64,000 nucleotides of DNA. Origin: Chryseobacterium gleum. Its GTDB lineage: Bacteria; Bacteroidota; Bacteroidia; Flavobacteriales_D; Crocinitomicaceae. Positions within the stretch are counted from its first letter, which is position 1; each line of letters opens with the position of its first letter. The DNA lies in NCBI GenBank assembly GCA_945897805.1, contig CAMDFX010000003.1, forward strand, positions 124,001 to 188,000. Reading direction: 5' to 3'. The notes beneath the pieces are model-generated. The model did no database searches. It worked only from the letters and a program-made list of their open reading frames with translations, and was not told where the DNA came from. This document shows positions 22,482-25,386 of this stretch, piece after piece. Made by a program: the position numbers and the translations under genes.

Positions 22482-23317
22482 ATTACAAAGCAAAATATTA
22501 TCAAGTCTTTGGTCTGACAGAATCTGCGTCTAAAGCAGAAGTTAAGCGCGCTTATCGAAAATTGGCGATGAAATATCATCCTGATAGAAATGATGATCCA
22601 AAAGCACACAAATTGTTTTTGGATTTGACAGAAGCGTATCAAATTATCATTGATGATAAACCAAGACCTTCCGAAACTATTGTCAGTCCGAAAAGAACGG
22701 ATAAAACCAATGAAGAGAGAATCAAAGAAGCGCAAGAAAGATTAAGGAAACAGACAGAAAGAAACAAAATTAACCAAGAAATTTTCATTCAAAAATTAAC
22801 TTCTGGATTGAAATTCAAGGTGTTTAAAATTTTGGCTATTGTTTCTACCTTTTTGGCTGTAATTTTAATTATTGAAAAAATACTTCCGTCGCGCTTGCAG
22901 GAAAGTAGAGTGATATCTTATTCAAAGATCTACAATGGATTAGTTCATGATGAAATTCGATTGTTCAAGACAGAAAATGAACAAAGTTTTTTTCTAGAAG
23001 ATCCAAATCCAAATAGGCTGTTTGACAATCCCGAAATTGTTGTTGAAAGTTCAATTTGGATGCGAAACCCAATTAGAGTATGGTTTAGAGGAATCTATTC
23101 GTATAAAAGTTACGGAGTAGATTTTTCAATAATAAATCTTTTTCCCATTGTTCCACTGTTATTATTGATTCCAATTTTCACCTGGAAATTCGCCAAAAGA
23201 AAGTATGGATTTATCGTTTTGCTAAATTTTTCTGTTTACGCAATTTCAGCTTGTGTAATTTACATTTTAATTTCAGAAAACAGGTGGCTTCACCTTTTGA
23301 CTTTTGGATTTGTTTGA
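22478..23317 (+). CDS. DnaJ-domain membrane protein
   Basis: A 279-residue protein. The J domain occupies residues 3-60 with an intact HPD (34-36), so it should stimulate a DnaK-type ATPase. A charged linker follows, then one membrane segment (about 113-130) and two more near the C-terminus (about 212-230 and 240-265). Its start is TTG within TTGA, overlapping the menE stop by four bases, which suggests translational coupling. The next Met is inside the J domain, so TTG is needed. It is not a full DnaJ: there is no Gly/Phe region, zinc domain or C-terminal substrate domain. The role is unknown beyond Hsp70 recruitment at the membrane. Confidence 0.85.
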   Translation: MNYKAKYYQVFGLTESASKAEVKRAYRKLAMKYHPDRNDDPKAHKLFLDLTEAYQIIIDDKPRPSETIVSPKRTDKTNEERIKEAQERLRKQTERNKINQEIFIQKLTSGLKFKVFKILAIVSTFLAVILIIEKILPSRLQESRVISYSKIYNGLVHDEIRLFKTENEQSFFLEDPNPNRLFDNPEIVVESSIWMRNPIRVWFRGIYSYKSYGVDFSIINLFPIVPLLLLIPIFTWKFAKRKYGFIVLLNFSVYAISACVIYILISENRWLHLLTFGFV

Positions 23318-23680
23318 CACTAAATAATTCTTGATATTTTAAATAATTGTTTGTTTTTTGATAAATCGAATTGTGCAAGATAATTTTGTTTTAGCGGTAC
23401 AAAAATCGAACATTTTATATTTATGGCCTTGGAAGAAAGGTTTTTAAAGGTGCACTGAAAAAGTAGACTTTTGGAGGAAGCTAAGTAGCTTTAGCGGATT
23501 AGATCACCGACAAAATCACGTTTTCAGAAGCCTTTAAAATAAAGCGCAGGTTACAATAATTGAATTCGTGCGAAAATTGGCGCTTTAACTTGATGACTCA
23601 GCCTTGATTTTTGGGTTCGTTTTGATTAAGCAAAAGGAACAAAAGATTTAAATTGTAGGATAAATTGTATAATTAAGAAC
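23318..23680. other. Intergenic region holding a structured element
   Basis: 363 bases between the DnaJ-domain gene and smpB. No ORF of meaningful size is seen on either strand. The right two-thirds carry the multi-hairpin element described separately. It does not show tmRNA ends or a tRNA-like domain. Confidence 0.6.
23442..23644. repeat. Multi-hairpin intergenic element (possible structured RNA or dispersed repeat)
   Basis: Three consecutive inverted repeats. Hairpin A: TTTTAAAGG (23442-23450) and CTGAAAA (23455-23461) pair with CCTTTAAAA (23531-23539) and TTTTCAG (23521-23527), 16 bp with a small internal loop. It encloses AAGCT/AGCTT at 23478-23491. Hairpin B: TAAAGCGC (23540-23547) pairs with GCGCTTTA (23580-23587). 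Hairpin C: GTTC and TTTTG (23615-23624) pair with CAAAA and GAAC (23631-23640). A and B abut. No T-run follows, so these are not simple terminators. The strand is not known. Confidence 0.6.
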
Positions 23681-24133: not shown

Positions 24134-24337
24134 GCTACAAAATTACAATTTTTAGTCGATATTAAATTTTGTTGTTTTAAAATCTCTCCTCCACAAAGTA
24201 TCCAATCGCAATTTTTCAAAGGTTTAATTTTAAAATTTAACAAATGGTTTGCTAAATTTAAGTGATTGATTTTGAAATTTTTGATTCAATCTTAGCGATA
24301 AATATTTCATATAAATAGGTTTTGTTTAAATCATTAA

Positions 24338-24345
24338 TATATTTG
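24338..24345 (+). promoter_or_regulatory. -7 box upstream of the PCMD/T9SS gene
   Basis: TATATTTG followed by C, a full match to the Bacteroidota -7 consensus, 27 bases before the ATG. No ideal -33 TTG. Confidence 0.45.
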
Positions 24346-24372
24346 CAATTCATAAACGATAAAAAGGTATAG

Positions 24373-25386
24373 ATGAAAACAAAATTAGTTACTTTAATTT
24401 TTACTGGTTTTTCTTTGGCTTTGACAGCTCAAACTCAAATTGTAAATGGAGGTTTTGAGACATGGGGAAACTCAAGTCCAGGAAACGCTGACGAACCAAC
24501 TTCTTGGTATTCTAACAAAACGGGTTCTACTGTTGCTTCAATAGGACCTCAAACTTGCTATCAAGAAACATCTAATCCGCATTCAGGAACATATTGCGCT
24601 CGTTTAGAGACAAAATATTATATACTTGCTGTTGTGAATGGTAATTTAACAACGGGTGTTGTCAATGCACCAAGTCAAGATAAAGCAGAAGGTTATATTG
24701 GAACTATTAATTACAGCACTGCCACTGACACACGAAGAATGTCATTTATTGGTCGTCCTGATAGTTTGGTTGGTTGGTACAGATATACGCAAGCTACTAA
24801 CGGAACTGGTGCAACTGCTGAAAAAGCCAAAGTTGTAGCATTTTTACATTCAGGTGATTTCAACGATCCTGAATTGCCAGTAAATGGAAATCATCCTGAT
24901 TTGAGCGCAAACAAAATCGGAAAAGCACTTTTCAATTCAGTAGCTTCCGACAATACAAATTGGAAACGATTCTCTGTGCCGTTTGTTTATACAAACGGAA
25001 ATACGCCGGAATACATCATGATGAGTATTACGCCTTCTGACAATCAAATGACCACTGCACCAGGAATTCTAGGTACTGGAAGTAAACTTTGGATAGATGA
25101 TTTAGAGGTTATTTATAATCCTAACGCCAGTGTAGTTGAAAATGAACAAAATAACTTCAATGTTTACAATTACGAAAACAAGATTTTTATTGATTTATCA
25201 GCTAAAAACGATAAGTTGGCTAAATTGAAAATTGTAGACATTACTGGAAAAGTAGTAATGGAATCAAAATTAGCAAGTAATCAAAAAAATGAAATTACTT
25301 TGTCAGCTGAATTAGTTCAAGGAACATACTTTTATCAAGTTTCTGGATCAGAAATTCAAAAAACTGGTAAATTTGTTATCAGATAA
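24373..25386 (+). CDS. Secreted PCMD-like protein with T9SS sorting domain
   Basis: A 337-residue protein with a signal peptide (MKTKLVTLIFTGFSLALTAQ). The mature start IVNGGFETWGNS and later GSKLWIDDLEVIYN resemble the PCMD (putative carbohydrate metabolism) beta-sandwich of Bacteroidota. The last 75 residues form a type A T9SS sorting domain, NVYNYENKIFIDLS through KLKIVDITGKVV to GKFVIR. The protein should be exported by the Por/T9SS machinery and fixed to, or shed from, the surface. Substrate unknown. A TonB-dependent receptor gene follows, but a terminator lies between. Confidence 0.85.
   Translation: MKTKLVTLIFTGFSLALTAQTQIVNGGFETWGNSSPGNADEPTSWYSNKTGSTVASIGPQTCYQETSNPHSGTYCARLETKYYILAVVNGNLTTGVVNAPSQDKAEGYIGTINYSTATDTRRMSFIGRPDSLVGWYRYTQATNGTGATAEKAKVVAFLHSGDFNDPELPVNGNHPDLSANKIGKALFNSVASDNTNWKRFSVPFVYTNGNTPEYIMMSITPSDNQMTTAPGILGTGSKLWIDDLEVIYNPNASVVENEQNNFNVYNYENKIFIDLSAKNDKLAKLKIVDITGKVVMESKLASNQKNEITLSAELVQGTYFYQVSGSEIQKTGKFVIR

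Follow-up and report, generated by a model that had tools for sequence, protein, structure and literature searches.

The dnaJ–smpB spacer hosts an inserted element

In the 64,000-nucleotide stretch of DNA that we analysed (hereafter the window), convergent genes encoding a DnaJ-domain protein (PF00226) and SmpB (PF01668) are separated by a spacer of ~363 nt that hosts a copy of a repeated element. In the sister genomes G001 (C3:23946-24158 then 24168-24418) and G004 (C10) the dnaJ-smpB flanks are contiguous, with an element-free spacer of ~30 nt, and the homology of the window flanks to these two genomes ends near 23311 and restarts near 23662. The window copy is, therefore, a ~350-bp insertion. 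The ORF list contains no open reading frame of at least 60 aa inside the element, and there is no transposase gene within it. The features of the window copy are as follows:

23312..23661, + strand: whole inserted element, as set against the empty orthologous sites; ends approximate
23312..23424, + strand: left AT-rich spacer; the ends of the window copy are too degraded for a terminal repeat
23425..23613, + strand: conserved structured RNA, from P1 to the T-run (match to covariance model R1 at 23425-23606; pair counts)
23425..23439, + strand: 5′ strand of P1, pairing with 23589-23603, with tandem G.A mismatches inside
23442..23451, + strand: 5′ strand of P2, pairing with 23530-23539
23455..23461, + strand: 5′ strand of P3, pairing with 23521-23527
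23466..23517, + strand: core, comprising the P4 stem, an internal loop, P5 and the P6 mini-stem (4-base loop)
AAG 23478-23480 / ATCA 23503-23506, + strand: core internal loop, bases near-invariant
23481-23484 pairing with 23499-23502, + strand: P5
23540..23587, + strand: P7 hairpin TAAAGCGC/GCGCTTTA, loop hypervariable
23589..23603, + strand: 3′ strand of P1; GCC at 23601-23603 pairs with GGC at 23425
23608..23612, + strand: T-run after the closing stem, a possible terminator, near-invariant in the family (alignment A1)
23615..23640, + strand: 3′ hairpin GTTCGTTTT/AAAAGGAAC, detached from the main fold and also occurring alone
23641..23661, + strand: right terminus; the terminal-repeat-like motif of other copies is degraded here

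The hairpins form a single closed fold

The fold consists of a closing stem (P1), a long arm (P2-P6), a second arm (P7), the T-run and a separate 3′ hairpin. The original prediction described three successive hairpins in this spacer. All of its stems exist, namely TTTTAAAGG/CCTTTAAAA (23442-23450 pairing with 23531-23539), CTGAAAA/TTTTCAG (23455-23461 with 23521-23527), TAAAGCGC/GCGCTTTA (23540-23547 with 23580-23587) and GTTCGTTTT/AAAAGGAAC (23615-23623 with 23632-23640), but the first two hairpins are not independent, being joined by P1. Pairing was also rightly judged to exceed chance expectation: for 23430-23650 the MFE of the + strand is -55.9 kcal/mol (z = -2.78; equalled by 1 of 200 shuffles), and the fold of the - strand is weaker (z = -1.91). 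The accompanying statement that no T-run follows has to be corrected, as ATTTTT comes immediately downstream of the closing stem (T at 23608-23612), before the third hairpin. A simple terminator scan at this T-run called no terminator.

Copies are dispersed within and beyond the genus

The sequence at 23425-23613 is one copy of a ~350-bp dispersed element found in a group of freshwater Flavobacteriia. A nucleotide search of the window’s own genome (G000) returned five near-complete copies (84-100% identity) plus several partial ones, and there were 18 matches in G001 and 30 in G004, both sister genomes with at least 16 copies; the same search found no match in G002 or G003, the latter being without a close copy. 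A strict covariance model detected relatives in 29 of the 240 genomes and 9 of the 24 genera of the host’s family. A core match in G075, which belongs to another family of the order (E = 2e-6, filters off), and similar cores seen by eye near matches of the 3′ hairpin in other genomes suggest that still more distant relatives may exist. The suspicion that the right arm is a recurrent Bacteroidota element was well placed: on its own, the 3′ hairpin has matches in many related genomes, and it also occurs alone elsewhere in G000. A phylum-wide search for the core in 395 genomes, in which filters were strict and few candidates from each genome were scored, recovered the own genome only. Phages and viral contigs contained no match to the element, and plasmids yielded one weak match, of the hairpin only, on a Lactococcus plasmid. 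Neither at gathering nor at permissive thresholds did the window or 20 relatives match any of the 4227 Rfam models, and we found no description of the element in the literature. The examined copies are intergenic and lie in every orientation (E, element; arrowheads, flanking genes): 11 as >E<, 11 as >E>, 11 as <E< and 4 as <E>.

Compensatory changes preserve the fold on one strand

The structured RNA that the original prediction listed as an option was checked for compensatory changes, and the copies covary beyond both shuffled and slid controls. In alignment A3 (25 copies without inserts, the source of the consensus fold), 98.9% of cells pair in the consensus and double changes occur in 10 pairs versus 2.6 in shuffles. 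Among 27 diverse cores, 18 of the 20 core pairs are changed on both sides; the score for covariation is 0.48, as compared to 0.20 when shuffled and at most 0.21 when slid. The shuffles leave shared ancestry in, a concern that is lessened, though not removed, by the slid control, by how many pair types occur and by the spread across genera. As the relatives in alignments A4 and A5 were found by a model of the window’s own type, these alignments lean to that fold; A5 was realigned by sequence alone, with the structure applied afterwards.

Both sides have changed in 5 of the 10 pairs of P2, and among relatives P1 reads GGC/GCC, GAC/GTC or GTC/GAC. One pair of P6 is AU or GC, in 12 copies each, the other is CG in 14 copies and UA in 8. 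P4 varies by genus (TTTT/AAAA, AATAAT/ATTAT, CAAT/GATTG, CAAATT/AATTTG), the cores being strongly divergent in sequence with the fold retained, and these divergent variants always surround ...GGAAGCT...AGATCACC...; across genera, every counted pair of P4-P6 is double-changed. G-U pairs occupy 42 cells and A-C a single one, so that the + strand is the selected strand. At the level of aligned DNA, the copies thus show a conserved, strand-specific, covarying RNA-like fold in at least nine genera.

In 10 of 36 copies a TAnnTTT box directly precedes GGCC, as against 1.8 expected from shuffles that again retain shared ancestry. The box and the T-run are compatible with an independent transcript running from ~23425 to 23613.

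The element inserts at new sites

Dispersed copies and insertion polymorphism against empty orthologous spacers show that the element moves. The idea of a MITE-like dispersed repeat, also among the options first proposed, fits the many dispersed copies inserted at varied sites, and the orthologous site in a sister genome is empty for L003, L004, L031, L060, L061, L063, L068, L071, L072, L074 and L075. The clearest junction is that of L074 (left ...GGGTTTTTTATTTGTTTC, right ...AAAAGATTTTATTTGTTTTC, empty site GGGTTTTTTATTTGTTTTC), with a 12-bp duplication, TTTTATTTGTTT. Direct repeats of at least 11 bp flank 6 of 33 copies, compared to 3% in swapped controls (~1 copy expected). Candidate duplications are 9-12 bp long and clearest at L074, L032 and L095; clear duplications are found at few loci, and some lie away from the terminal motif (L003, L074). 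The window copy lacks clear terminal repeats and shows no target duplication.

The ends of some copies resemble those of an IS4-type insertion sequence

Several copies start with the left motif CACTRTTGTCSGAYNAAA, near -104 from GGCC, and the right end lies at +22 after GGAAC, its reverse complement reading TATCGTCCGACTAAAATC. The left-end motif is matched at 12 or more of 15 positions in 10 of ~38 copies; shuffles reach this score 10 times in 500. For the right-end motif, the offset is almost constant in about two thirds of copies. The terminal inverted repeats are imperfect, confined to a subset of copies and often degraded. An end-based search for autonomous copies at first returned only MITEs, in G003: a separate, perfect-ended 297-bp family with ends CACTRTTGTCCGATAAAAA and duplications of 9-11 bp. 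G004 has a multicopy insertion sequence with ends CACTACTGTCCGATAAAA and the ORF start MNKSTHFFGQSVFGQLIS, visible only as contig ends and probably collapsed in assembly. Both this insertion sequence and the 297-bp MITE end in the same motif as copies of our element. A truncated G003 ORF, equal in its start to the G004 ORF, matches DUF4372 at 5e-17 (above the cut-off) and the IS4 transposase NF033592 at 1e-10 (below the cut-off). DUF4372 insertion sequences of G103 have ends CAC...TCCGAAAGTTT and 9-bp duplications such as ATCCTATTG.

Given the shared end motif and the ORF matching DUF4372/IS4, the route with the best support in this genus is cross-mobilisation by an IS4-type transposase; judged from these sequence matches, the assignment is tentative, and we would put it close to, if slightly below, an even bet. 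No DUF4372 gene was found in G000 or G001, and no IS4-type ends were seen around relatives in other genera (13 of 21 loci examined).

A probable MITE-like element with an RNA-like interior

It is very likely that this is a mobile element with a conserved RNA-like fold. As the overall explanation we favour, with a probability of roughly 0.6, a non-autonomous MITE-like element that carries a structured RNA and is mobilised in trans by an IS4/DUF4372-type transposase. The ~350-bp unit would comprise a left AT-rich arm of ~110 nt, the structured RNA of ~190 nt, the 3′ hairpin and a short right arm. Movement in this genus would most likely be as DNA, with a putative IS4/DUF4372-type transposase acting in trans on the CACTRTTGTCCGAYAAAA ends. 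The RNA part would be transcribed from the + strand, with a predicted promoter and start near GGCC and a predicted terminator and end near the T-run, and could be either a functional small RNA or a selfish passenger that lessens the damage done where the element inserts.

MITE interiors are usually seen as unconstrained transposon leftovers. Here the interior of a MITE-like element is a complex fold maintained by compensatory mutation in at least nine genera, while the element still inserts anew. If this is confirmed, bacteria would offer here a clear example of a mobile DNA repeat selected as RNA, and of a family absent from Rfam which the covariance model now allows to be annotated.

Among the alternatives, the one that fares best, although we consider it unlikely, is a family of functional small RNA genes that the host lineage has in many copies, disseminated through recombination with occasional mobilisation, in which the RNA, for example a protein- or ribosome-binding regulator, would be the selected product. 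Such a family would account for the deep covariation and near-invariant loop bases across genera, the strand bias (G-U versus A-C), the T-run after the closing stem and, upstream of part of the copies, a box resembling the Bacteroidota -7 promoter; it sits poorly with a patchy distribution in which most genomes of the family have no recognisable copy and the sister G003 no close one, with the many copies whose positions are not shared between sister species, and with several truncated copies. We give slightly less weight still to an RNA that would be more than passive cargo, a selfish structured RNA lineage spreading in Flavobacteriales, whose DNA-mobility partner would change by genus and whose AAG/AUCA core would be needed for its own mobility or maintenance; the core may, for example, bind a transposase, the ribosome or an RNA chaperone.

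Copying via RNA is improbable. A retro-element-like repeat moving by target-primed reverse transcription would leave a conserved 3′ end, 5′-truncated copies and target duplications of variable length, and the asymmetric ends, the structured RNA on one strand, the 3′-only copies L008 and L012 and the varying length of the target repeats all agree with this, whereas the 5′-only and internally deleted copies (L009, L006) and the terminal inverted repeats of several copies do not. Less probable still is a palindromic repeat of the REP/RAYT type that a TnpA-REP (Y1) transposase would mobilise. REPs typically measure 20-40 nt, and the unit here is 350 bp. While the element is a palindromic intergenic repeat and Y1_Tnp genes occur in its own genome, such genes are just as frequent in G003 (4 genes) despite the lack of a close copy there, and G031 and G058 have some copies yet no Y1_Tnp; we disfavour this reading because copy presence does not track Y1_Tnp. 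Least probable of all is a cis-acting mRNA 3′-end stabiliser or terminator for dnaJ or smpB: the position between two convergent gene ends would suit the mRNA-stability role once proposed, but the same locus is empty in sister species and other copies lie in all orientations to their flanking genes, which refutes it as the origin of the repeat, even if a local effect on dnaJ/smpB is possible.

The MITE-like element that we favour resembles IS4-related bacterial MITEs in being short, non-coding and dispersed, with empty orthologous sites, ends similar to those of a resident IS4-type element and candidate 9-12 bp target duplications. Unlike them, it has imperfect, often degraded terminal repeats and an interior formed by a long strand-specific RNA-like fold with compensatory change across genera. 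Small interspersed repeats with RNA-forming potential include the pneumococcal BOX and RUP (PMC3049150) and the enterobacterial RU repeats (PMC2759123), and Coxiella MITEs are discussed together with small RNAs (PMC5896051). Our element is like all of them in being intergenic, multi-copy and structured, with partial and composite copies, and differs in host phylum and, going by their descriptions, in sequence and fold. With the Bacteroidota structured-RNA motifs Flavo-1, 6S-flavo and Bacteroidales-1 of Rfam (PMC2864571) it shares a non-coding, covarying, intergenic nature; unlike these, the window copy and the 20 relatives match no Rfam model at permissive thresholds.

Variant, arrayed and interrupted copies

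A divergent second subfamily has a very short core hairpin (GTGTAAACGACTAAGATAG...TCATCGA) and is represented by G000:C5:168448-168587 (L195), by L159 and L169 of G003 and by L141. In the genus g2 (L176-L187; G113, G114) copies are arranged head to tail in arrays with a ~293-bp period; some units are without the RNA, which is missing exactly between two GCCTTG repeats. Within L176 (G114:C94), an additional stretch of ~110 nt, with TGTTTCAAGACTA...TAGTTTTGAAAC as its bounds, is present in two of the array units; it is perhaps a further hairpin element nested in the RNA. L118 (G113:C199), on a short MAG contig, has a cobalamin riboswitch and 5S and 23S rRNA nearby.

Some copies contain GC-rich micro-inserts of 23-30 nt at six fixed positions: L095, L099, L102, L104, L106, L108, L109 and L112 (G001, G004), and L004 in the own genome (C3:262667). 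There are two related types, ACTTCCGAAGGATGCAGCGAAGCT and ACCGCGCAAGCAGCCACGAAGTGA, and one position has the reverse complement. Among the fetched loci, micro-inserts are found only inside the element, and single ones distinguish orthologous copies of G001 and G004 or G000 (L098/L070, L097/L066, L102/L005). In four copies at G004 contig starts (L105, L106, L107, L109), the sequence ATTCTGTGTTAATTTCC... breaks in at one and the same point, after CCGCGCAAGCAG of a micro-insert (CCGCGAAGCAG in L109); it may be an insertion sequence that targets the micro-insert. Finally, the palindrome CCCGATAGCTATCGGG, or a close variant of it, is inserted within or beside L099, L007 and L125.
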